From positions 68,866,018 to 68,930,017 of the forward strand of contig CM050453.2 in assembly GCA_027563935.2 (NCBI GenBank): a stretch of 64,000 nucleotides of DNA, read 5' to 3'. Position numbers and translations under genes: made by a program. Origin of the DNA: Costus lasius (taxonomy: Eukaryota; Streptophyta; Magnoliopsida; Zingiberales; Costaceae). The notes under the pieces are model-generated. The model did not search any database and was not told where the DNA came from. It saw only the letters and a list, made by a program, of their open reading frames with translations. This document shows, piece by piece, positions 1 to 56,091 of this stretch (position 1 is the first letter of the stretch; each line of letters opens with the position of its first letter).

Positions 1-422
1 TAGAGCTCGAGCATTAGGCATTCTGGGCTATCAAAACACTGAATTTCGACTTGAAGAACGCGGGTGAAAAATGAAAGTTACAATTGAATGAGCTTGATGA
101 AATTAGACTCACCGCTTATGAAAATTCAAGAATCTATAAAGAGAGGACTAATAGATGGCATGACTGACACATACTTAGAAAGGAATTCCAACCAGGTGAA
201 TTTGTTCTTTTGTTTAATTCTAGGTTGAGACTTTTTCCCGGTAAACTTAAATCTCGATGGTCTGGGCCTTTTCAGGTTAAGAAAGTCTATCCATACGGAG
301 CTGTGGAAATATGGAACAACAAAACGGGGGAAGAGTTTAAGGTTAATGGTCAGAGATTGAAACATTACTTCCATGAGGAACCTATTGAAGGTGGAGAAAA
401 ATTTTTACTTGATGAACCATGA
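1..422 (+). pseudogene. Athila integrase, C-terminal end (decayed)
   Basis: Translation in the frame of positions 3, 6, 9 gives the standard end of Athila/Tat-type integrase. It includes the block [14 protein letters not shown] (from about 228) and [10 protein letters not shown] near the end, ending at a TGA at 420-422. Upstream in the same frame are the family segments AFWAIKTLNFDLKNAGEK and [17 protein letters not shown]. In-frame stops at 15-17 (TAG), 72-74 (TGA) and 165-167 (TGA) break it; the TGA codons sit where the family usually has charged residues such as arginine. Catalytic DDE residues would be upstream, outside the window. Integrase joins element cDNA to host DNA; this copy cannot. 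Confidence 0.88.
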
Positions 423-440
423 GCAAACCTGAGTGCAGAA

Positions 441-4156: not shown

Positions 4157-5043
4157 TGATGATTCTAAATTTCTTAGTAATTTTCATACTTATTAACTGT
4201 TTTTTTTTGGGTCATAATCATGCTCTTTTGCTTATTTTTATGCCTTATTTGTCAAGTACTTTGGAATCTACACCTTTCTTAGTTTTTGATTAATTTCAGG
4301 TAAAAAGATAATTATTCTGATGGGTTTTTAAGCAATCTCAATACGTACAAGGATTCTAATCATCAAGAGGAGTTTACACATCAAATTTCAAGTCAAACTG
4401 AGTTTTCTAGCGAAATTACGGCAGTGCCGTAATGAATTTTACGGCCGTAATATGCAAATATGGCACTACTGTAATGATTTTATGGCTGCTTCCCGCAGAA
4501 ACTTTTTGGAAAATTACGGTACTATCGTAATACTTTTACGTTGCCGTAATTCAAGTCCAAATTCATACAACAACTTTTGAAAAGAATACGGTACTACTGT
4601 GAGACTTTTTATGGTACCGTAATTTCAAGACAATTTCATACTGAGACTTCAGAGGGCATTACGACACCGCTGTAATAAATTTCACGGTACCATAATTACG
4701 GCCCAGTTGCCCGATTTTTTCGCTGGAAACTTAAAGAGACGATTTCTCAAGCTTTAGGGCACTAATTAAAGATCCGTAAAAAGAGGAGAAGGAGAAAAAA
4801 AAAAGCAAAATGACCAATTTTTATCATGAGTTCACAAAGAATTTCAGAGAATCGCTGCCGCCCTAGGGTTTGTCACCGATTCTCGTACAGACCACCTCCA
4901 GCCGTGAAATTCAAGAGGAAGCTTTGCCTGAAGAATGAGAACATACCACAGAAGTTTCAGAGTGAAAGGAGATTGATCGAGGGAGAAATCAACAAAAAAA
5001 AAGGGCGCCGCCACTGTTCATCGCATCCAGGAGCAAAATTACA

Positions 5044-5065
5044 GGCTGTAATTTTCATTACAGCC
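5044..5065 (+). other. Conserved R-region hairpin, Athila LTR
   Basis: GGCTGTAAT (5044-5052), loop TTTC, ATTACAGCC (5057-5065): nine perfect pairs. The homologous positions in element A (32117-32142) and B (50976-51001) also form perfect hairpins although the stem sequence differs. It follows a conserved CACTGTTCATCG. Confidence 0.7.
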
Positions 5066-5626
5066 CTATTTTGTAACTTTTACTCTTCTCTTTCAATTTC
5101 TAATCACTCTAAATGATGTTTTATTGTAATTCTTCAATCATGCTAGCTTAAACCTTTTTGGGACATGGGGTGTAGTCCTCTTGATTTCTTAATGACTGAA
5201 TAATTTCTATTTCATCAGAATATTTTTGATTTGATAATTTTACTTAAGTGATTAATGCCTTTAATTCTTTCTAGTTTCATATTGTCAACATGTGTTAGAG
5301 TTTTATGATATGGACTGAGAAGTGACATATAGAACTTGGAGTACTAAAATCAAGTATTCCGAACTTATTGTAAGAGATTAGGTTTGTTCTTAATTCTAAA
5401 TTTTAGAAGTTTATTGACTTGTTGATATTTTGTTCTAGGATGCATTAATGATATAGACATGAAAATATGCTAGAGATAGATGTTTGATTGTTAGAAAATC
5501 TTAAGTAAAACTTATGAAACTAAGGTATGAGAATACTTAGTTTCATTCGAGATATTGATATCGAGATAGAATGCATGAGAGTGATTCTTAATCTCTTTGT
5601 CAAGGTTTGCTTTTCTTAAACATAGA

Positions 5627-5688
5627 ATAAATCTGTGCGAGAGCGAGAATTATTTGATGTTAATCATCTGCGTGAGAGCGAGATGATT
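5627..5688 (+). other. Two bulged GNRA-loop hairpins in the Athila LTR
   Basis: Hairpin at 5662-5688: arms AATCATCT/AGATGATT (8 of 8 pairs), bulged G at 5670, inner pairs CGT/GCG, loop GAGA. Hairpin at 5627-5654: outer arms AATAAATCT/AGAATTATT with one mismatch, bulged G at 5635, inner TGC/GCG, loop GAGA. These share the plan of the five hairpins in element A with different stem sequences. Confidence 0.72.
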
Positions 5689-5955
5689 TCTTATTAAGGT
5701 AAATTATATCTTTATCATATTAAGAATAAACTGATGAACATTTATTTATATCCAGTCATAGAAATCAGGATGGATGAACCCCTAGTCCCAATTCTTTCTC
5801 TTTGACATTTCGTGAACTTTTTGATCATTTGCTTTCTTCATAATTGGTTCGCCTAGTTAGTGAGAAATTGATTATTCGGTACTTGACAAACAAGGTCTTT
5901 GTGGTTCGATATCTTAATTATTACTTCGAGTATCCGTGCACTTGAGGACACAACA

Positions 5956-14280: not shown

Positions 14281-15650
14281 CGGCAGCACCACAATCCCCA
14301 CACACGTCTCCGCAAGTGCATAGATGTATCGAAGTAATAAAATATCGATTCCATAGAAACTCTAGAATTAAGTACCGATTAAATCGTATTCTTGTAATCT
14401 AGGAAAATTGATTACTATGAAAGCTATGATTAAAGCACAATTAAATAGAAAAGGGTATTAAATGCTAGGGACGCTCGGGCATGGGATTCACCACATTAAT
14501 TTTTTTAAGTAATTCATATTAGCATACATCAAATATTTAGGAGTGTTAAAAGAAAATCTACTAATAGAATATATAGAATGTCCTCTTTCAGCAGCTTACC
14601 CTAATGTTTAGCCCATCTTATAACTGTCTATCGCTCTTACTACCTACCTTGATTAATTTCATTAAGCACACTATAGATTTTATGTTCCCCATATAAGTAC
14701 ATCACTTTCATAGGTCATTAGTTATAAGATTAAATGCAGGGTTCCAAAACTAAGAGTCACTTTTTAATCTTTGTCTTAGTTTCCAAGGCAATTAAATTAC
14801 TATATCTAAATTATTACATATAAAATTATTCCTACTAACTAAATTCTATAACCATAGCTACTTTCATAGACTATGACCTCGTTTGGCCTAGCTTTTAGGC
14901 CTGCTTATGGCTTTGCGGCCAGTAGAAATCAAGAAGTTGAAGTGTTTGGCCCTTTAGTTTCTCTGTTCCAACCCGCAAATTAGTTGCTTCTCTGAGAAGC
15001 AGGGATGAAACTGCTTCTTTTGCCCCCACCTGCTTATGCTCAATAACCCTTATATGTAATAATACTTTTTTAATAGTATAACTCATAATATTTTTAATAA
15101 ATATTTTAATTATAGTTAACTACAAATTTAATCATATAATTTTTTAATAGTATAACTCATAATATTTATTAGAAATAGAATAACCTAACCATAACTTGTG
15201 CATCAAAACACCCTCAAACTTCTTCAGCCAACATCTTTTCAACCATTACTTCTTCAACAAGCAAAAACTAGAAACAGAAGCTAGGCCAAACGAGACCTAT
15301 ATCTTATAGGATTAATAAGTGATTTTCAAGATTAGGAGTCGCCTTTCAGTCTTTATCCTAACCCTCAAGACATGCGATAAATTAAGAACTATTAATTAAA
15401 AGTATCATGAATCATCAATAATCAACACAACCAAATAAAATCCACATGCTTGATAATCGTTACAAAAATAAAATTAATGGGTTACTCCCCATAGCTTGAA
15501 ATCAAGTTTAGGCTATGAACATGTTCATAAAATTAATCTTAAACTTTTAAGCAAATAAATACAATCAGTTTAGAAAAGGTAAATTAATAAAATTTGCAAC
15601 TCCCTAACAAAAATTATAGAAAGTTGGATTTTTTCTCTCCTAGTCATGAT
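14281..15650 (-). repeat. Decayed Athila-like LTR remnant
   Basis: The left end aligns by eye with the U5 end of element B's LTR (50066 onwards), sharing CCGCAAGTGCA, CGAAGTAATAAA, AAGTACC and GGATTCA/GGTTTCA in order and spacing. Further matches continue weakly across the MITE at 14875-15297 to about 15650. Both edges are approximate. No coding region is attached. Confidence 0.5.
14875..15297. mobile_element. MITE, about 423 bp, with GTTTGGCCTAGCTT terminal inverted repeats
   Basis: The left end reads GACCTCGTTTGGCCTAGCTT and the right end is its near complement, ending AAGCTAGGCCAAACGAGACC. The core TCGTTTGGCCTAGCTT is perfect on both sides. TAT flanks both ends as a possible 3-bp target duplication. 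The terminus type and 3-bp duplication resemble PIF/Harbinger (Tourist-like) MITEs, whose usual target is TWA. The interior is AT-rich with a duplicated AATAGTATAACTCATAATAT segment (about 15072 and 15150). It lies inside the LTR remnant. Confidence 0.75.
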
Positions 15651-30767: not shown

Positions 30768-31346
30768 TATATTAGTGTTATCCCTTAAGACCTATTTTTA
30801 GTCTTGGCTTTTGTACTATATTATTGATATTTTATTGATATCTTGGCATTGTCGTTGTCATGGTTTATTATACATCTATGCATATGTATGTTTAGATGAT
30901 GATGTCCCTTGAGATATTTCTATCTCAGTTTGTTTTGTCCCAAGTCTAGTACCATAGTGGATATGGGACAGCTATAGGTGTAAGTGAGACTTGTTTATGT
31001 GCTAGTTAGCACGGGTTACTTAATGCAGGCATATGTGTATATTAAGGGAGATATATTGGACCGACCTGCCATGAGGATCCTTCTTGGTGTCTCAAGAAGA
31101 ATCTCACAGTTACAAAGTTGTATCTATCCTTTGACTTGAGGCAGATTGTATCTCTGTATAGTAAGAGGTATGCTTCGATACAACCTAACGCCTCACTGTA
31201 ATAGAGAGGTCATAATGATTGTCATTGGGTATATCTTGAGTTGTATGAGAGGTGCATCTTACCAATAGAGGATTTGCACCTTCCTTGCGAGGAAGCTTGA
31301 TGTCCATGGGCTCCTAGATGGTGCATGATTGAAAGTGTGTGGCCAC
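30768..31346 (+). repeat. Old plus-strand Angela LTR, first part
   Basis: Starts near TATTAGTGTTATCCCTTAAG, parallel to an Angela LTR start, and follows the LTR of the elements at 16998 and 56202, for example GGCATTGTCGTTGTCAT, the ATATGGGACAGCTAT segment and GTGTGTGGCCAC. It is cut at 31346 by element A and resumes at 49559. Confidence 0.72.
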
Positions 31347-31856
31347 TGATGACACCGAAATTTATAGTAATTTCATGCCATTTTATATTTCTTTTCGTGT
31401 TATATTTATTAACTTTTGCTTGTTTTTAAGCATTATTTGCTAAATATTAAGGAATTTATAGAATTTCTTATTTTTCATGAATTTTAGATAAAAGTGCCAA
31501 ATTTTGATGGATTTTGAAAGATTTGAGCACACGAATGGATTCAGGACGTCGAAACGAAGCCGCCCGCTAATTTTCATGCAAATCAGAGCGAATTTGAAAA
31601 ATACACCCCGGGTGTAATGGATATTACAGGTGTAATTTCTGCCCAAAAATATGGCAGTGCCGTAAATAATAACACAGGCCGTAATTTAGAGAAATTTTTG
31701 ACCAGAAAGTTCGGTTGATTTTACGGCACTACCGTAATTTATTTTACGGCCGTAATTTGCACCTGGTCGCGCGACTCTTACAGGCCCGAAAATTGCGAGG
31801 GCCATAACGTTTGATCCAGAGCTCCAAATCAAAATCCGAAAGATGTTCCGGACTCG

Positions 31857-31864
31857 TATATAAG
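31857..31864 (+). promoter_or_regulatory. TATA box of element A 5' LTR
   Basis: TATATAAG followed by AGAATAAG. In the 3' LTR the same place reads TCTTTAAG (48259-48266), so only the 5' copy keeps a good match. Transcription would start about 30 bp downstream. Confidence 0.5.
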
Positions 31865-32116
31865 AGAATAAGATGCTCGAAGTGGAAAGGGGAACTTTTA
31901 TCACGTATCCAGGGAGAAATATCCAGAGAGGCGGCTAGGGTTTGTTCTCACGCCGAGAGGCGTAGAGGGCACCTCAGGCCTTGATTTTCACACAGAAGCT
32001 TCGCCTGGAGGAGAGGACAACAGCCCAAAAGTTGTAGAGGAAAAAGAGTTCAATTGGAGGAGGAATTGATGAAATCGGTGGTGACAGCACTATTCATCGA
32101 GTTCTGCTTGCAAAAT

Positions 32117-32142
32117 ACGGCTGTGAAATATTTCACAGCCGT
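32117..32142 (+). other. 26-bp perfect palindrome near the start of R
   Basis: ACGGCTGTGAAAT (32117-32129) is followed directly by its exact reverse complement (32130-32142). Outer arms AAAATAC (32112-32118) and GTATTTT (32146-32152) can extend it. The 3' LTR copy near 48519-48544 is one base off. Elements B and Athila 1 have homologous hairpins with a TTTC loop. Confidence 0.8.
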
Positions 32143-32547
32143 GCTGTATTTTCTAAAACCTCTTTTCTAGTTGATTTTTGATCTTCTGAATTTATGGATT
32201 ATTGTATTTTCTTCTCCATGCAAGCTTAATACTATTTTGGGACATAGGGTTTAATCCCTTTGATTTTTAATGATTAGATAATTCTTTTCTTTCATCATGA
32301 TAATCTTTGTTGTGATAATTTTACTCTTGTGATAAATTGTGCTTAGATTCTCTATAATTGCATGTTATTAATTATGTTCTTAGAGTTTTCGCAATGAGAC
32401 TGAAAGGTGATTTGCTTGAGAGCTTGGAACCCTAGAATTGCATGTTAGGAACCCTTCTTTAGGTAGATCCTATTTGATCTGTTCTAGTAGAATTATTGCC
32501 ATGATTATAACATGTATCTATAGATCGAGTCTATTTGTCAAACGTGA

Positions 32548-32791
32548 AGATCTTGCACGAAAGTGAGGATCTGAACGTTGGAGTTCCATGAGTAAAACTA
32601 GTGTAGAATCCGGATGCACGAAAGTGATCCTTGAGACTCCACTAGAGATTATCAACCTAGAATCCGGATGCACGAAAGTGATCCCTATAATCTTTGATTG
32701 ATGATTTACTTACCTTCAGCATTGAAAGTAGATCTTACACGAAAGTGAGGATCAGTTATCTGCATGATTGTCTGCACGAAAGTGAGACAAT
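32548..32791 (+). other. Array of five bulged GAAA-tetraloop hairpins
   Basis: Each has outer arms, one bulged purine on the 5' side, inner CAC/GTG and loop GAAA. 32548-32572: arms AGATCTT/AGGATCT, bulge G. 32612-32630: GGAT/ATCC, bulge G. 32666-32684: GGAT/ATCC, bulge G. 32731-32753: GATCTT/AGGATC, bulge A. 32767-32791: ATTGTCT/AGACAAT, bulge G. Arms differ but stay complementary (one T-G pair in the AGATCTT and GATCTT types). The array recurs in the 3' LTR at about 48950-49195. Confidence 0.82.
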
Positions 32792-33079
32792 ACCTTTATC
32801 AAGTAAATTAGGTCTTTATCATAACAAGATTTGATTGACGACCCTTTTTATTTATATCTTATCATTAGAATCAAGAAGGATGAAACCCTAATCCCATGTT
32901 TATCTCTCTGATTATCTCTTTAGCATATTCTCTACATAGTTACTTCTGTCAAATTCGATTTACTTAGCTAGCGAGAAAATGATTATTTGGTAATTAACAA
33001 TAAGGTCCCTGTGGATTCGATACTTTTCTTTATTACTTCGATAGTTCCGTGCACTTGCGGAAGCCTATCAACAAGTTTT

Positions 33080-33096
33080 TGGTGCCGTTACCAAGG
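33080..33096 (+). other. Relic primer-binding site inside the LTR end
   Basis: TGGTGCCGTTACCAAGG differs at four of 17 positions from the working site at 33157-33173. It is preceded by CTATCAACAAGTTTT, which resembles an LTR end plus primer-site spacer. It sits 77 bp upstream of the true site. The copy in the 3' LTR lies near 49483-49499. Confidence 0.75.
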
Positions 33097-33156
33097 ATTA
33101 GTCCAAGGTACACGCGTGCCAGACTTGTAGTGTTCCCTTTCGGGCTATCAAGTTTT

Positions 33157-33173
33157 TGGCGCCGTTGCCGGGG
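33157..33173 (+). other. Primer-binding site, tRNA-Asp type
   Basis: TGGCGCCGTTGCCGGGG is exactly complementary to the 3' end of plant tRNA-Asp(GTC) including CCA. This is the primer used by Athila elements. It lies six bases after the 5' LTR. Confidence 0.93.
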
Positions 33174-33407
33174 ACCTTAGTTTTGTTAATATCATAATAG
33201 TTGTTAGTTTTGCTAGACTAAGTATTTTTGTTTTAGATTTAACTTTGTTTTTTCTTTTTGCAGGTTTTGGATTTTCACAGTTGTGACAGAACTGTGATAT
33301 CTGAAGATTTGTGAATCTACTTATGTTTTGTGTTTTTTTATTTATTTTGAAAAAAAATATTCTCTGATTGATTGGTGTTGGATTATCTTTTTGATAGATT
33401 TGAAGAT

Positions 33408-41110: not shown

Positions 41111-43944
41111 TGTAACATCCCGTTATCTTAACCCCAAACAAATGGCACAATTCATGAATGATACAGGATGTTTCATATAAGATCGATTCATATGCTAGGT
41201 AAAACCGAGTTCAAGAAAACACGATCTGAAAATTTCCATAAATCCATACATACAAATTCACAAAACACAAATCTCATAAATCACATAAGGGTACCTGCCA
41301 CCACGCAATCCTTGCACTAGACATATGCAAGGCAACAGTTATATCAAATCCGATGGCATAAATACAATTCGATTCGAAATTCAAAGCAAAGCCACAAAGT
41401 CGATTTTATAAACTCATACCAAACACCGAAACCAGGCTGAGCCCGCGGTGACACAAAAATCAAACTCATTAATTTGGCATCACAAGTTCACATAGTTCAC
41501 ATGGTTCACATAGCTCATATCATTCATATTAAGGCCACAACCGGCCCCAGATAATTAAGCACAAAAGTTCTTAACCAAACTAGCATAATGTCCACGCCAA
41601 TGCTAACTCAAGAAATGCGCCCCTGCTCTATGCCTGAAAATAGTGAGGGGTGAGCTACACAGCCCAGTGAGTGGATAGTCTAAATCGACCATCCATAACA
41701 TACACTCAAAAATATAGGCAGGTTATTTTAAAAATCTGTAACAGAACATTATGTCAACATATAACAAAATAAAGGAAACAGAAGTCATATAAACAGCCAG
41801 ATGTACACACCAACATATAACAAACTCAGGTTCTATACAAACTCAGGTTCTAGAGTTATACTCTAAACCAACTAAACACACCAATACTTAGTTAACCTAG
41901 TTGTCCAGCATATTCAGTAGTGACCAATATGGTCTAACCCGGCTTTGGCCTAAGCACTGGGAGCTGCAAAATCTCGTGCAACACATAAACATGGACAGTG
42001 AGTAGAATCAAGAGGTGGCCCCCGCCAGGTCACGACGTGGCACTTTGCTCTAAAACACCCCATAAACACATCGATGGCTTGTGTGTAGATTCAAGAGGTG
42101 GCCCCCGCCGGGTCACGGCGTGGCACTTTGCTCTACGACACCCCATATCACAAAAAGAGAGTGATGACATCAAGAGGTGGCCCCTGTCCGACCAAGACAT
42201 GGCACTTTGCGTCAAAACCCGTTCTCCCAAAAGGTTCCTACTGGACAACAAACACATCTTATATCATATTTCATAAAGGTGGACTCCTAAGTGTCAACTA
42301 GACTCTAGGATAGTCATCACAAAAATCATATCGGGCAGGCTGAACATCAACCCCCATCACAATAATCATAGTAGGCAGGCTGAACATCAACCCCCTCACA
42401 TATCAAATACAGGGCTGAAATTCAAACCCTTAACATATCACATAACGACTACCCCCTTGAGTACACAGTTACACTTAGCCTTAGTCCTAACATCACATAA
42501 CACATAATATCCGAAATCACATAACCACATAATTTCCAAAAATTACATAACCACATAATGTTCAAAGATCACATAATCCCATAATATTCAAAAATCACAT
42601 AATTACATAATATTAATAATCACATGATGTAGTGTAGTCCTTAGGTTTCATGCTGATTAGTTCAGTCTTAACCTTGCTATGTTATCATCCAATTTTTCTC
42701 AAACAAGGAATACATGCTACACTCATAAAGAAACATAAAATTACAATAAGCATCCATAAAATCAACATAAAATGTAAAACATGTATTCTTACTAACGGGA
42801 TAAAATCACTGATTTAATACTCAAAATTCATACTAAAAAAATATCTAGATAACAAGAATTTCATACTCAAAATTCAATGATTTAATGCTACCAAAATTCC
42901 CTATAAAAACACCTTAAATTTCATACAAATTTTCGGTTAAATAATCATCAAAATTTCGGTTTTCATAATTAAATCAAAATTTCAGTTTTCATAACAATTA
43001 TCAAGATTATTTTGGTTTTTATAATTAACATCAAAATTCGGTTTTCATAACAACTATCAAGATCATTTCGGTTTACATGGAAATTTAGGTTTTCATGGAG
43101 AAATACAATTCGGTTCTCATGAATAACAATGCCCTAAATTCGGTTTTCATACCTTACATACACTTTGCATAATTACGGTTTTAACATGGTAAAATTTCCA
43201 AAATTTCCAATCCATTCGATATATCAATTAACACAACTAAGTTGATAGAACTCGATTAAGTCACCCCACTCACCTCTTAACCGTGAACGCAAGGTGAAAA
43301 TTCTCCAAAAATTGTCTAAAGCCTTGTCACCACCAATGGAAGAAAACGCCACCCAAACCAAAGATGCCGGCCAATGGAAGAAAGGAAGAGGAAGAAAAGA
43401 TTTTCGCCTCCAAGCCTCCAAGCCGTCGCCCAAGATTTCTTCCAAGCAAAAATATCGCCAACTCTCCTACCCTAACCGAAATTACCACTTAAACTTTGGG
43501 TTTTTAAATTTTAAACCCATTAAGCAATTAATTCAAATAGGGTTTAACCCATTTAACTAAAATTTCGAATTTTTAAACCCACTAACCCAAAGTTAACTAA
43601 TTAATTTAATTAACTGACAAATAACCAATCACTTAACCGAAATCCAATAAGGACTTAATTAATATCCACTAAGGTCTAATTAACCAATAAGGTCTAATTA
43701 ATTAACTAACAACTTACAACCCATAAATCCTAATTAATTTATCATGAACAACCAATAATAATTTATCATAAATTAACAGCCAATAATCAAACAAATAATC
43801 TCTAATTAATTTACAATAAATTAACAACCAAAAATCTCTAGTTAATTAACTATTAACAACCAATACATAAAAAATATCACAGTCAATAATTTTAGACAAA
43901 ATCAAAATAATGCTTACCAGGACTTAAGATCCTTGGATCTTACA
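41111..43944 (-). repeat. 5' LTR of the Tekay element
   Basis: Same length as 33517-36350 and about 99.7 percent identical by eye, with no indel seen. Confidence 0.95.
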
Positions 43945-45344
43945 ATTAAACTCTCATATTGTTTCATGTAATATTTGTAAGTCTTCTGATCATTATACTT
44001 CTGATTGCAAATTTAATTCTGCAAATCCTAATTCTTCCTGGTATCAAGATGATCATTATGATTCTAGTTGGGAAAATCAAACTTCTTCTTATGATGATTA
44101 CTCAAATCATGTTTCTGTACCATACTATGAGGATACTAATGATGACTTGAATGAGACCATTAAACAACTCAATTCTAGGTTGGATGACATGATTGCGCAT
44201 GTTGAATTGCTAAAAACCCAGAAAGCACAACAAGCATGTTTATTTGAATTTGAAACTGAAAAGCTAAATTCTTCTTATTCTCCCATTAGATGTGATATTT
44301 GTGGATATTTAGATCATTGTACCTCTGATTGTCCATTTTTAAATCCCAATTTGTCATATAAAGAATCTTATGAAATGTATGATAGATGGAAAAATCGTCA
44401 ATCCTTGACTGTTAATACTGAACTGCTAGAAACCCAGATTGCACAGCATGATTGCTTATTTGAGTTTGATACTGAAAAACTTAATTTAAAAAATTCCCCC
44501 TGTGATCATGATTGTTTTGAGATTGAGCCTTATGTGAATCTCACTCTGATTTTGATAATTGTAGAACTGATTCATCTGCTAATTTATTTGAGGAAAAGAT
44601 TGAGAAAATTGAAATTGAAGAACCTTCTTTTGATGATAATTCTGATTTTGATAATATCTTGTTTATGGTTAAATCTGATGAGCATGATGAAGGTTCAAAA
44701 ATTATAGACATTGATGAGCCCCACTGTGATTTTGGTGATATTTTTAAAATTAATGATAAATCTCTTGTGGTCAATTCTGATTCTATTAATTCTTTTTCAT
44801 ATGATTCTGATTTTGACTCTTCTGATGATGAATTATTTGTGTGGAAGCATGAGGAAATTAATTTTGAAGAGTCTCATCTTGATTTTGTTGATAATTTTGA
44901 TATTGAAAAATTGTTTGATGATGAACATGAAGAAGTTGAAAAAGATTTGATGTTACAAACACTGATGAATCTCACTCTGATGTTTTGCCCTTATCTTTTG
45001 TTGAATCTTTTGATGAATTTGAAAATTTGAGCTTTATTGATGTATCTGATGTAGAACAGAAAGACTATTATTATGATGATCCAATGCTTGAATATTTTAA
45101 TAAAAGTCCTAGTATGATTGAAGGTCTAATTTTGAAGAAAGGGCTTATGATTCTGCTTGGTGACAAACATAGGAAGATTATTGAAAATTTTGATTTTGAT
45201 TTCTACATATTTGAGAAAGCCACTTTGATTTTGATTTATTTGCAATTCTGTATTTTTGAATTAGTGGCTAAAATTTTTGGACAACGGAAGAGGAAGAAAT
45301 TGCATACAATCTACTTTGGTACTGATTCACCTACTTCACCATGA
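43945..45344 (+). pseudogene. Element A gag-like zinc-knuckle protein, main part
   Basis: Resumes the frame begun at 33408. It has two CCHC knuckles, CNICKSSDHYTSDC (near 43978) and CDICGYLDHCTSDC (near 44290), a predicted coiled region around NETIKQLNSRLDDMIAHVE, and two copies of a LL.TQ.AQ..CLFEF.TEKLN block. An acidic Asp/Glu/Ser-rich stretch follows, then a conserved end GLILKKGLMILLGDKHRKII to LVAKIFG. Compared with element B, about 10 bases are missing near 44537 and another frame change occurs near 44960, so it is broken. Zinc knuckles suggest RNA binding, as in gag. The acidic tail and hydrophobic end are not recognised. Confidence 0.75.
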
Positions 45345-47747: not shown

Positions 47748-49553
47748 TGATGACACCGAAATTTATAGTAAATTTCATGCCATTTTATATTTCTTTTCGT
47801 GTCATATTTATTAACTTTTGCTTGTTTTTAAGCATTATTTGCTAAATATTACGGAATCTACAGAATTTCTTGTTTTTCATGAATTTCAGATAAAAGTGCC
47901 ATATTTTGATGGATTTTGAAGGATTTGAGTGCACGAATGGATTCAGGACGTCGAAACGAAGCCGCCCGCCAATTTTCATTGAAATCGGAGCAAGTTTGAA
48001 AAATACACCCCGGGTGTAATGGATATTACGAGTGTAATTTCTACCCAAAAATATGGCAGTGCCGTAAATAATAACACGGGCCATAATTTAGAGCAATTTA
48101 TAACCAGAAAGTTCTGTTGATTTTATGGCACTGCCGTAATTTATTTTACGGCCGTAATTTGCACCTGATCGCGCGACTCTTACGGGCCCGAAACTTGCGA
48201 GGGCCATAACATTTGATCCAAAGCTCCAAATCGAAATCCGAAAGATGTTCCATACTCGTCTTTAAGAGAAGAAGATGCTTGAAGTGGAAAGGGGAACTTT
48301 TATCACGTATCCAGGGAGAAATCTCCAGAGAGGCAGCTAGGGTTTGTTCTCGTGCCGAGAGGCGTAGAGGGCACCTCAGGCCTTGATTTTCACGCAGAAG
48401 CTTCGCCTGGAGGAGAAGACAACAGCCTAGAAGTTGCAGAGGAAAAAGAGTTTCAATTGGAGGAGGAATTAACGAAATCGGTGGTGACAGCACTGTTCAT
48501 CGAGTTCTGCTTACAAAATATGGCTGTGAAATATTTCACAGCCGTGCTGTATTTTCTAAAACCTCTTTTCTAGTTGATTTTTGATCTTCTGAATTTATGG
48601 ATTATTGTATTTTCTTCTCCATGCAAGCTTAATACTGTTTTGGGACATAGGGTTTAATCCCTTTGATTTTTAATGATTAGATAACTCTTTTCTTTTGTCA
48701 TGATAATCTTTGTTGTGATAATTTTACTCTTGTGATAAATTGTGCTTAGATTCTCTATAATTGCATGTTATTAATTATGTTCTTAGAGTTTTCGCAATGA
48801 GACTGAAAGGTGATTTGCTTGAGAGCTTGGAACCCTAGAATTGCATGTTAGGAACCCTTCTTTAGGTAGATCCTATTTGATCTGTTCTAGTAGAATTATT
48901 GCCATGATTATAACATGTATCTATAGATCGAGTCTATTTGTCAAACGTGGAGATCTTGCACGAAAGTGAGGATCGGAACGTTGGAGTTCCATGAGTAAAA
49001 CTAGTGTAGAATCCGGATGCACGAAAGTGATCCTTGAGACTCCACTAGAGATTATCAACCTAGAATCCGGATGCACGAAAGTGATCCCTGTAATCTTTGA
49101 TTGATGATTTACTTACCTTCAGCATTGAAAATAGATCTTACACGAAAGTGAGGATTGGTTATCTGCATGATTGTCTGCACGAAAGTGAGACAATACCTTT
49201 ATCAAGTAAATTAGGTCTTTATCATAACAAGATTTGATTGACGACCCTTTTTATTTATATCTTATCATTAGAATCAAGGAGGATGAAACCCTAATCTCAT
49301 GTTTATCTCTCTGATTATCTCTTTAGCATATTCTCTACATAGTTACTTCTGTCAAATTCGGTTTACTTAGCTAGCAAGAAAATGATTATTTGGTAATTAA
49401 CAATAAGGTCCCTGTGGATTCGATACTTTTCTTTATTACTTCGATAGTTCCGTGCACTTGCGAAAGCCTATCAACAAGTTTTTGGTGCCGTTCCCAAGGA
49501 TTAGTCCAAGGTACACGCGTGCCAGACTTGTAGTGTTCCCTTTCGGGCTATCA
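47748..49553 (+). repeat. 3' LTR of element A
   Basis: Homologous over its length to 31347-33150. By eye the first about 810 bp differ at roughly 7 percent of positions and the last about 990 bp at under 2 percent. Followed by the GCCAC target duplication. Confidence 0.92.
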
Positions 49554-49558
49554 GCCAC

Positions 49559-50065
49559 ACCCAGGTTTAGCTTGATTTAGTCATGACCATCATCATTGGA
49601 ATAAACGAAGTGTGACACGCTTGTCCAATCTGAATGATCAGCATGGCAAAGGGACATGTATACATGTATACCTGATAACAGTTAAGGGGTTGTTGATGAC
49701 GACATTAATTCTAATGACTTGGGTAGCAGCGATGCACTACTAGGTGCCACTCATTACTTGTGATGATTAGGTCATCACTACCAACGTCTGAGGAACCTAT
49801 AGGGTCGCATACCTAGAAGCTAGAGATTCCATATTGATCGGATAGCATGAGATCGAATCTATCGATGATTCGGATCTATTTGGGAGACATATGCATCATG
49901 AATGCAAGTTATGAGTTGAGAGGAGCTTTAGTGATCAAGTTGACCCCAGTTGACCTTAGGTGATCACTTTTGACTCCAATTGACTAAGTCTTAGTCGACG
50001 GGTCAAAACTCGGGTTAGCACCAAAATATTTCGGTGGTTTAATAACTTGATCTACATAAGCTCAC
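49559..50065 (+). repeat. Old plus-strand Angela LTR, second part
   Basis: Continues the LTR cut at 31346: the join reads ..GTGTGGCCAC|ACCCAGG.., matching GTATGGCCATACCCAGG in the Angela LTR at 56202. Further matches include CGCTTGTCCAAT, GGCAAAGGGACATGTAT and the GGGTCGCATA segment. It is cut at 50065 by element B, whose left target copy is CTCAC (50061-50065). Confidence 0.75.
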
Positions 50066-50327
50066 TGTTGTAGTCCGCAAGTGCACGGATACTCGAAGTA
50101 ATAAAGAAAGATATTGAACCACAGAGACCTTATTGTTAAGTACCAAATAATTGTATTCTCACTAGCTAAGCAATCGATTATACTGGAAGTAAATGATAGA
50201 AAGAACACGAAATCAGAGAAAAATTAGGACTAGGGTTTCATCCACCTTAATTTCAATGACCAGATATGGATAAAAGTTTGTCAGACTAATTTTATCATGA
50301 TAAAGATATAATTTACTTCATAAAAGG

Positions 50328-50580
50328 ATTATCTCACTTTCGTGTAGACAATCATGCTGGGACCGATCCTCGCTTTCGCGCAAGATCTATCCCAAGCTGA
50401 AAATAAGTAAATCATCAATCAAAGAACTCAAGGATCACTTTCATGCATCCGAATTCTAAGTTGATTATCTCAAGTGGAATCTCAAGGATCACTTTCGTTC
50501 ATTCGAGTCACAACACAGGTTCTACTTATGGTTCTCCAACGCTCCGATCCTCACTTTCACACAAGATCTTCATGTTTAAC
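50328..50580 (-). other. Bulged GAAA-tetraloop hairpin array of element B
   Basis: Sense-strand features. 50328-50352: arms ATTGTCT/AGATAAT, bulge A, CAC/GTG, loop GAAA. 50365-50387: arms GATCTT/AGGATC, bulge G, inner CGC/GCG (compensatory to CAC/GTG), loop GAAA. 50433-50451: GGAT/ATCC, bulge G, CAT/GTG, loop GAAA. Two further copies near 50487 and 50555 have lost pairing. Confidence 0.75.
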
Positions 50581-50975
50581 AAAATAACTCAATCATAGAT
50601 TCAAGTTATCAAACATGACAATTATTCTTTTGAAATCAAGAAATAAGAATTAACCTAATTTCTTACGGTGAGTTGCTAAATTCAATTTTAGGGTTCCAAG
50701 TTCTCAAGCAAATCACTTTTCAGTTTATATTGTGAAAACTCTAAAACATACATGATAATAAGAAAACTATGGAGAATTATAGGCAATCATCACATAAGTA
50801 GAATTATCATAATAAAACTATTCTGACAAAATAGAAGTTATCTAGTCATAAAAAATCAAGGAGATTACACCCCATGTCCCATATGATGTTTAAGCTAGCA
50901 TGGAAGAAGAAATACAATAAACCATAGTTTTGATTTGATCAGAAATTGAAAAGAAGGGAAAATCAACTTTACAGC

Positions 50976-51001
50976 ACGGCTGTAATGAAAATTACAGCCG
51001 T
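50976..51001 (-). other. R-region hairpin of element B
   Basis: ACGGCTGTAAT and its complement ATTACAGCCGT form 11 perfect pairs around a 4-nt loop (TTTC on the sense strand). Homologous to 32117-32142 and 5044-5065. Confidence 0.75.
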
Positions 51002-51903
51002 AATTTGCTCTAAGAACCCGCGATGAACAGTGCCAGCGCTCACTCTTTCGTTGATTTCTCCCCCGACCGAGATCCTTTCTCTCTGAAACTTCTGGGGTAT
51101 CGTCTCCTCCTCCAAGTGAAGCTTCCCCTCAAATTTCATGGCCGGAGATGTGCTGTATGCTTCCCGGCGGCGAAACTTATGGTGGTGGTGAAAAACTCGA
51201 TTTCTCCCTCGATAGTGGATGAAAATTAGGGCTTTTGCCCTTGTTGTGTTCTCCTCCTCGGAGGCTCTCTTTTCCTTCTTACAGCTTGGAATTTAAGGGT
51301 CTGGATCGCCCGCAATCGATCACGCAAAAATCAGACTCCAATTTGATCGTGAAAATCGCGTTCCAGGAATAGAATTACGGCAGTGGTTTCTGTTACGGTG
51401 CTGCCGTATTTTCCTTTAAGTCTTCTGTACAGGATTCGACTAAAATTACGGTATTGTGGAAATGATTACGGCAGTGCCGTAATTTCTGGAAAACTCTCGG
51501 GTCGGAAGTAGTTTCAAAATACGGCACCATGATTTTAGTTACGGTAGTGCCGTAATTTCGGTGAAACTTTTTATACAAAATCATCCCAAAATACGGCAGT
51601 GCTCCAATATTACGGTACCGTAATATGAATTACGGCACTGCCATAATTTGGTATGTAGCTCCGATTTGCATGAAATTTGTAATATAACCTCTTCTTGATT
51701 ATGAGAATTCCTATATATATCTGATTTTGCATGAAAATGCCTTAAAATCATGCCTTTTTATCTGAAAATCATCAAAAACCAAAATAGAAGTAGATTCTGC
51801 AATATTTGATAAAAAGGGCATGAAAATAAGCAAAGTAGTATAAATGTGACACAAAAAGAGTAATGAAATGACACAAAATATACTATAAATTTTGGTGTCA
51901 TCA

Positions 51904-54722: not shown

Positions 54723-55848
54723 TTATCCAAAAAGTTTAGCCACTAATCCAAACATCCAAAATTTCATATAAATCAAGATCGACATGGCTTTCTCAAATAT
54801 GCAGAAATCAAATTCAAAATTTTCAATTACACTCAAAGGATATTCAATGATCTTCCTATATTTGTTAGTAAGCAAAATCATTAGTCCTTTTTTCAAAATT
54901 ATATCTTCAATTGCAATAAGAGTAGGACTTTCATCAAAAGATTCAAGTATTGGATCATCAAAATAGTCTTTCTGTCTCACATTTGGTTCTTCAACAAAGT
55001 ACAATTTTTCAAATAAATCTGTAGACATGGGCAAAGCATCAGAGTGAGATTCATCAATATTCATAATTTTCAAATCCTTCTCAAGTTTCTCATGCATTTC
55101 ATCAATTTTAAAATTACTAACAAAATCAGAGTAAGATTTTCCTAAATCAGTCCCCTCATATCCTTCATCAGATTTAACCACAAATAATATATCATCAAAA
55201 GAATCAATTTCAAAACTATCACTAGAGTCAAAAGGAGATTTAACAAAATCAATTTCCTCAAACTTTTCCACAAATAAATTATTAGATGAATCAATTTTAC
55301 AATCATCAATCTCAGAGTGAGATTCATTAATGTTCACATAAGGCGCAATCTCAAAACAATCATAATCAGAGGGGGATTTTTCTAAATCAATTTCTTCAGT
55401 TTCCAAATCAAATTCAAATAAACAAGCATGTTGTGCTTTCCGTGCTTCTAACATTTCAGTATTAACAGATATAGATTCTACTTGAGAAGCAAGATGACTA
55501 ACTATCCTTTTAAGATCTACAATATTCTTACTTTGATTTGTCATGATTTGGTTTTGATTTGACATGAATTTTTCAAGCATGGATTTTAAACTAGAATTTT
55601 TTTGTATCCTCAAAGTATGGTTCAGAAACATGATTTGGAGGAGTTAAAAATTGGCAATCAGAAGTATAATGATCAAAACATCCACAGATATCACATCTAA
55701 TAGAAGAATAAGATGTCCTAGAAGGATGCATATAAGAGTGTAATTTCAATTTATCTGCAAGAGTACACAATGAATCATCTTCATACTTACCTTGTGGCAT
55801 GTATACCTCACCTCTTTTAGTTGCCCACGAGTTCTGATTAAAAGACAT
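54723..55848 (-). pseudogene. Element B gag-like zinc-knuckle acidic protein (one frameshift)
   Basis: Starts at ATG 55848 (MSFNQNSWATKRGE). One CCHC knuckle, CDICGCFDHYTSDC, lies near 55680. A single frame change near 55600 then leads into a coiled region with NIVDLKRIVSHLASQVE, a CLFEFD.ETEEIDLEKSPSD block, about 150 acidic residues (repeats of the type FVKSPFDSSDSFEID), and the conserved end IILKKGLMILLTNKYRKIIE to FGLVAKLFG. About 370 codons in total. Shared with element A from start to end, so this is a family protein and not chance reading. The zinc knuckle and coil suggest a gag derivative; the long acidic tail and conserved C-terminus are unexplained. Confidence 0.75.
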
Positions 55849-56091
55849 ATCTTCAAATCTATAAAGAACAGAAAGATTATCCAACACCAATCAATCAAAA
55901 TTTTTTTTAGAGTATTTTAAAAAATAGAAAATATAAAACACAAGCAAATTCATAAATTTCAGAAATCACAGTTCTGTCACAACTTGTGAAAATCCAAAAC
56001 CTGCAAAAACAAAAAACAAAGTTAAATCTAAAACAAATAAAACTTAGTCTAGCAATACTAACAACTATTTTGATATTAACAAAGCTAAGGT

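Follow-up and report, generated by a model that had tools for sequence, protein, structure and literature searches.

The window analysed here is the whole stretch of Costus lasius DNA, 64,000 nucleotides long, and it holds long terminal repeats (LTRs) of several retrotransposons together with parts of their internal regions. The features other than hairpins are as follows.

31347-33150, plus strand: 5' LTR of element A, with the target-site duplication GCCAC at 31342-31346
47748-49553, plus strand: 3' LTR of element A (earlier "element B"), with GCCAC at 49554-49558
33157-33174, plus strand: primer-binding site 3' of LTR A, seen as sequence
43928-45344, plus strand: zinc-knuckle reading frame of element A, in pieces
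50066-51903, minus strand: LTR of element C (3' LTR; ends judged by eye)
54723-55890, minus strand: zinc-knuckle frame of element C, homologous to that of A
4160-5955, plus strand: LTR of element D (3' LTR, Athila-type; ends judged by eye)
3-426, plus strand: terminal part of an integrase frame that precedes LTR D, 91.6% identical over 119 amino acids to a D-family integrase frame
14309-15600, minus strand: LTR E, more distant, split by an inverted-repeat insert

The LTRs at 31347-33150 and 47748-49553 are 96.1% identical, the GCCAC duplication flanks both, and they are the two LTRs of one element, A. The original prediction had taken the second for a separate element B; given this identity and the duplication on both sides, it was rejected as an independent copy and is A's own 3' LTR, so that the arrays in the two LTRs do not count as independent evidence. 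Two LTRs, a target duplication and a primer-site sequence at 33157 identify A as an LTR retrotransposon, and the primer site we take to be of the tRNA-Asp type. Nested inside it, at ~33.5-41.4 kb, lies a second LTR element. The end of LTR A also contains a second primer-site-like sequence (33074-33174), as if the LTR had outgrown an older end. LTR C is 74% identical to LTR A across the 3' 1.1 kb, and LTR D is 66% identical to it across 0.9 kb.

The LTRs of A, C and D carry arrays of five small hairpins each, at the following positions, with one further site upstream.

32548-32572, plus strand: A hairpin 1, bulge G, inner pairs CAC/GTG, loop GAAA
32612-32630, plus strand: A hairpin 2
32666-32684, plus strand: A hairpin 3
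32731-32753, plus strand: A hairpin 4, bulge A in the window copy
32767-32791, plus strand: A hairpin 5
32399-32408, plus strand: upstream GAAA site with a 3-bp stem and an irregular outer arm
48952-49194, plus strand: array of the A 3' LTR (48952-48974, 49015-49033, 49069-49087, 49134-49156, 49170-49194)
50327-50568, minus strand: C array (50546-50568, 50486-50504, 50432-50450, 50365-50387, 50327-50353)
5463-5688, plus strand: D array (5463-5485, 5514-5546, 5568-5588, 5630-5651, 5662-5688), every loop GAGA

All five sites of element A, spanning 32548-32791, are present as first described, and at all five the outer arms differ from site to site yet stay complementary. The copy with inner pairs CGC/GCG (50365-50387) is likewise real, but its placement in element B was wrong, as it lies on the minus strand of a third LTR, that of C. 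The GAGA copy at 5662-5688 in the diverged LTR is genuine too, though not alone, D having five sites. Individual hairpins vary: the fourth of the A 3' LTR (49134-49156) has two G.U pairs and so falls outside the strict scan described below, the C site at 50486-50504 has two mismatches in the window copy, the D site at 5630-5651 has an extra 3' bulge and was missed by that scan, and the bulge of A hairpin 4 is G in 24 of 28 A-family copies. Near-equal distances between successive loops (61, 54, 67 and 37 in A; 62, 54, 65 and 36 in C; 56, 48, 62 and 35 in D) make the five sites colinear, and a structure-free MAFFT alignment sets those of A, C and D opposite one another.

The strict plan was defined as at least four outer pairs (at most one of them G.U), one bulged purine on the 5' side, three inner pairs and a GNRA loop. 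It has 18 matches on both strands of the 64 kb, 17 in the four LTR arrays and one elsewhere (49896-49914), against a mean of 1.4 and a maximum of 5 in 20 dinucleotide shuffles of the window. Control plans gave, within the arrays and elsewhere respectively, 0 and 2 matches with a pyrimidine bulge, 0 and 3 with a 3' bulge, 0 and 4 with no bulge, 0 and 3 with two inner pairs, 1 and 1 with four inner pairs, and 2 and 46 with non-GNRA loops. Chance does not explain the five bulged GNRA hairpins. Similarly, in the host loci L002-L089 (463 kb, both strands, at most two G.U pairs), matches outside the query arrays comprise 7 singletons and 7 clusters of at least two, and all 7 clusters are array sequence: those in L003 and L060 are by position the window's own neighbouring arrays, and those in L027, L033, L065, L082 and L088 align at 71-93% with the array of D, C or A. 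Rfam gave no window match at gathering score, and a relaxed search returned only weak D matches far below the cut-off and none for A. Neither the array pattern nor the primer-site pattern had a match in viral_contigs, where the integrase fragment gave 19 candidate stretches with none confirmed, and a similarity search in plasmids returned nothing. In keeping with the original prediction, a full-text literature search that covered mainly openly accessible papers had no description of such an array among the papers listed.

The array is present in no fewer than five LTR families of the host genome (1.28 Gb): A, C, F, D and G. The genome was searched with the arrays of A, D and C and with LTR E, the best 40 of thousands of candidates being scored for each array query, and families F and G were found in the flanks of fetched loci. 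Including the window copies, 28 copies of A, 30 of C, 30 of D, 19 of F and 13 of G were used (13 of 14 for G, copy L134 being short). A tree of eight copies per family resolves five clades (support at least 97/95) in the order ((D,G),(F,(A,C))), with the A-C fork at 96/85. Family F has an extra copy of site 3 (F3b) and a degenerate site 2 (F2), in which 68% of the core is paired and 18 of 19 copies have the loop TAAA, and site D4 keeps its extra 3' bulge with a core pairing of 84%. Gapped copies were dropped from within-family rates (26/28 A, 24/30 D and 27/30 C copies used) and gapped units from pooled unit counts (29/30 for D2 and D3, 18/19 for F5); the pooled counts of loops and pairs exclude F2, and the tree change count excludes F3b. 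A model built from A and C alone finds D3 (E 1.4e-4), D5 (0.002) and D4 (0.29) and does not recover D1 and D2; sequence-weighted models thus fall short of the most diverged sites.

The 16 fetched copies of LTR E and its window copy have no purine-bulged match and one T-bulged match, and the array model finds nothing in the 16 fetched copies up to E 2. By eye, LTR E has one GAAA hairpin without the bulge plan in the corresponding region; its best 40 genome matches besides itself are 76-82% identical. A Streptomyces clavifer record, BMWJ01000030.1 (L001), resembles a plant LTR element and is therefore probably contamination; this element has no strict plan match, and its best model match is at E 3.5.

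The hairpins keep their pairing while their letters change. One array each of A, C and D gives 15 units, in which 102 of 105 core pairs are formed and all seven core pairs covary, with none of 500 shuffles reaching any of five measures; for D alone four of the measures are reached by none of 500 shuffles and the fifth by 2 of 500. A comparison of A with D shows 15 pairs unchanged, 14 that have changed on both sides and 5 on one side while still pairing, and 1 broken. The five-family set, drawn from five real copies with F2 and F3b included, comprises 26 units (25 distinct) and shows double-sided changes in all 7 core pairs, 97.7% of its cells being paired against a shuffled mean of 66.2%. None of 500 shuffles of this set reaches its covariation score, paired percentage or number of double-change cells; 1 of 500 reaches the number of pair types and 9 of 500 the number of pairs with a double change. 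Sliding the partner columns by 1-3 positions lowers pairing to 28-46%. Counted along the tree over the five sites, with one real copy per family and ties resolved in favour of paired ancestors, 13 double and 19 single changes kept pairing, 4 broke it and 1 restored it. Pair columns variable on both sides number 17, and 14 of them pair in every one of the five families, as against 3 of 73 mismatched partner columns. RNAalifold, applied to four rows, yields all five sites together with helices that enclose them, and 19 of 92 pairs show compensatory change. The array thus has the conserved RNA structure looked for in a packaging signal, and covariation across five families supports the original prediction of selection on RNA shape. 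Within families, changes per site amount to 0.027-0.051 in the inner stem, 0.031-0.117 at the bulge and 0.014-0.024 in the spacer, with loops about equal to the spacer and outer arms somewhat lower (0.007-0.018), and many of these changes look like the CpG decay expected of dead methylated copies. Units are not generally restrained within a family, so that conservation is visible between families and not within them.

The imperfect pairs bear on the question of which nucleic acid is conserved. Off-pairs in the window copies (A, C and D; 105 cells) number 13 G.U, 1 A.C and 2 others, and over all copies (4179 core cells, F2 left out, the copies not being independent) they are 419 G.U, 57 A.C and 77 others; off-pairs that are G.U rather than A.C point to sense RNA as the conserved form. 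Fold energy z-scores are -4.4 (A 5' LTR), -3.4 (A 3' LTR), -3.9 (C) and -2.4 (D) for the plus strand of the array and -2.0, -2.7, -1.6 and -3.7 for the minus strand, and being low on both they cannot settle the strand by themselves; other LTR stretches are structured too. It is very unlikely that the hairpins are DNA palindromes bound by a transcription factor in the way proposed for the LTR motifs of Sireviruses. Palindromic LTR motifs are indeed known in other plant elements, according to the available part of PMC2829016, and a separate CGG-CCG set lies in the U3-like part of the array-bearing LTRs. However, DNA palindromes would tolerate A.C as often as G.T, seen here once and 13 times respectively; the variable outer arms offer a factor no shared letters to bind; and the bulge is kept. 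The likeness to the Sirevirus motifs is that of repeated palindromes in plant LTRs, but those motifs, in the portions of PMC2829016 and PMC10760457 covered, lie upstream of the TATA box and are DNA dyads with fixed letters. In the array it is the bulge and the loop that stay fixed while the letters change, the G.U pairs are a mark of RNA, and neither a fixed-letter dyad nor an indifference to strand is found.

The loops behave as a set. In families A, C and F, with F2 excluded, 381 of 384 units have A as the third loop base, and in D and G 209 of 213 have G; of 616 units, 615 carry a purine at the bulge. Site by site, D most often has the inner stems CTA/TAG, TAT/ATA, CAC/GTG, TGC/GCG and CGT/GCG under a constant loop; conversely, G4 and A4 have like stems in the chosen copies, and what separates them is the loop and a single base outside the stem. 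The upstream site, a sixth (ACT-GARA-RGT), shows the same split between families: GAAA in 7 of 8 A copies (1 not found), in 19 of 30 C copies (11 not found) and in the single F copy examined, and GAGA in 18 of 30 D copies, with GAAA in 1, GATA in 1 and 10 not found. Given that loops shift together while stems differ between sites, a trans-acting reader of the loop is suggested, which may be a single reader that shifted between the groups A/C/F and D/G.

That no selection is involved, and that the pairing comes from template switching that corrects the palindrome, from conversion among the sites or from CpG decay affecting both arms, is hardly credible. Some double changes in F1 (CGA/TCG versus CAA/TTG) could be paired CpG decays, but correction would erase the bulge, where a purine is kept almost without exception. 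D's common loop sits on differing inner stems, and conversion tracts would consequently need to be ~4 nt long; gene conversion of the whole unit was rejected on this ground. Equally improbable is that the hairpins persist through Dicer-type processing or silencing by the host. Structured palindromic LTR regions in maize do show a small-RNA excess, as the consulted part of PMC10760457 reports, but silencing predicts, by those authors' own account, pressure to lose structure, and it leaves the kept bulge, the GARA loop and the five colinear sites unexplained.

A leader position had been derived from an LTR TATA box upstream of the array. The box, TATATAAG, is present in 1 of 8 A-family copies, the others being mostly TCTTTAAG-like, and TATAWA is absent from the 14 C and 24 D copies where the region was found. 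A box private to the window copy of A was discarded as a basis, so that the leader position of the array can only be inferred. What fits it is a step from variable to conserved sequence. Identity among 7 A copies runs at 69-87% in 60-base steps to offset 480 and at 87-100% from offset 540 (~31887), in a profile biased by the choice of copies for array similarity, and the boundary near 31887 would fit an RNA start there. The rise in conservation is less sharp in C and D and lies further into the LTR. The U3-like parts (31347-31887; 51360-51902, minus strand; 4161-4750) contain CGG(N0-6)CCG dyads above base shuffles, two nested patterns giving 4, 8 and 4 matches (2, 4 and 2 dyads) against shuffled means of ~0.1; such dyads are a signature reported for Sirevirus LTR motifs (PMC2829016, as far as its available text goes).

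The families differ in coding capacity. Between two D-family arrays 10.4 kb apart (L138/L139), Pfam finds RVT_1 (2e-30), RT_RNaseH (4e-34), Integrase_H2C2 (4e-13) and rve (6e-10), so that D has the reverse transcriptase (RT), RNase H and integrase domains of an Athila-type Ty3/Gypsy pol. Upstream of the window's LTR D lie the integrase frame and an ORF whose match to PF03078 ATHILA (E=0.002, 17.5 bits), looked for as the extra ORF specific to Athila elements, is under the 20.2 cut-off. The Gag-like frames of D have one CCHC knuckle, recognised by motif only. The stretch between two F-family arrays 10.2 kb apart contains an RT with 85% identity to the D-family one and the beginning of an RNase H, and the Gag-like piece of F, in one copy, has no knuckle. 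For the A family, nothing in L140, L141 or the window's internal stretches of A matches the RT, RNase H or integrase of D, and element C has no D-family pol match in the 6.0 of 12.8 kb searched. A is classed, by LTR homology, as no more than a non-autonomous relative. Elements A and C have both kept a long acidic frame with zinc knuckles (also at L140:139-1581). At the knuckle Pfam reports eIF3g, at 3.6e-7 in the window A piece (above cut-off) and 6e-4 in L140 (below it), and a protein search with the zinc-knuckle frame of C gave 560 candidates, none at E <= 0.001.

What these families share, then, is a five-fold RNA element of bulge plus GARA loop, recognised by its shape, sense strand, colinearity and joint loop change. 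That it is a cis-acting sense RNA element read by a trans-acting protein, the element's own Gag, for packaging is a proposal to which we give an even chance. The array in the 3' part of Athila-type LTRs would act as sense-strand RNA, presumably within the leader, with each hairpin built of a variable outer stem, one purine bulge and three inner pairs capped by a GARA tetraloop. The five hairpins would be several equal binding sites for one trans-acting protein, and the predicted reader would sense loop and bulge and not the letters of the stem. If this reader is a protein, it may be the element's own zinc-knuckle Gag, a reasonable candidate on sequence grounds, which would pick the element's RNA through the array for packaging and perhaps for dimerisation. 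A and C, with no pol match in the pieces searched, could be chosen through the same array by a helper such as F, and an RNA-selection signal shared across families is our best guess at its role.

Two other readings accept a functional RNA. A host RNA-binding protein might bind the array, or the array might serve translation, export or stability instead of packaging; we consider this unlikely yet worth keeping in view. The sense-strand, loop-read evidence is silent on the identity of the reader, although a joint shift of loops among co-resident families would be easier with a partner that the element itself encodes than with a single host protein common to all of them. Distinctly less probable is a function between RNAs with no protein, in which loops dock into helices and so compact or dimerise the leader. 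GNRA loops are known docking motifs, and all four aligned rows keep the pairing of a helix that encloses sites 4 and 5 (in A, GATTTACTT against AAGTAAATT).

The proposal of packaging by Gag has a bolder extension, tentative and in our judgement more probably wrong than right, in which the loop code, GAAA versus GAGA repeated five-fold, sorts the RNAs of co-resident retrotransposon families, with one nucleocapsid for each loop group. If true, packaging in plant LTR retrotransposons would use a multivalent signal of the lock-and-key kind, a single genome would display its co-evolutionary switch, and the autonomous and parasitic families of a group would share one loop and one matching nucleocapsid. 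Little is known of how plant LTR retrotransposons choose their RNA or how non-autonomous families borrow helpers. The natural GAAA and GAGA versions within one genome supply matched RNAs and candidate partners, so that recognition is directly testable in vitro. More broadly, covariation offers a route to RNA signals inside LTRs, which have mostly been studied as promoters.

The array resembles the retroviral Psi and the multi-hairpin signals of viruses in having short stem-loops, several to an RNA; in those systems they lie in or near the leader, as the array presumably does, and the parts of the literature covered describe them for the purine loop and PBS in MMTV packaging (PMC8096270) and for the dispersed packaging signals of RNA viruses (PMC6281560). 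It differs from them in consisting of five regular copies of one bulge-plus-GARA plan in an LTR retrotransposon, and recognition by Gag or coat protein, which belongs to those systems, is for the plant array only proposed. The coat-protein hairpin of RNA phages likewise has a short stem topped by a tetraloop, with a single bulged purine underneath; its loop letters and spacing differ, and no homology is claimed. BARE1 and BARE2, Copia elements and thus of another superfamily, are also comparable. Barley BARE2 has no Gag of its own yet is packaged, and the passages covered of PMC3735527 state conserved dimerisation and packaging signals and contain no bulged hairpin array. Endogenous pararetroviruses, too, have autonomous and non-autonomous partners that share noncoding signals changing in concert, in the portion of PMC5491270 consulted; there, region-specific recombination homogenises the sequence, whereas in the array loops are uniform and stems differ.

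A further putative hairpin lies near the LTR end, at 33047-33060, 50075-50088 (minus strand) and 5934-5947. Of the copies examined, 5 of 8 in A, 12 of 30 in C and 8 of 30 in D have its CGG form, most others giving no match. The sequence, CCGTGCACTTGCGG (CCGTGCACTTGAGG in D), would have the palindrome GTGCAC in its loop and is sited like a dimer-initiation hairpin.
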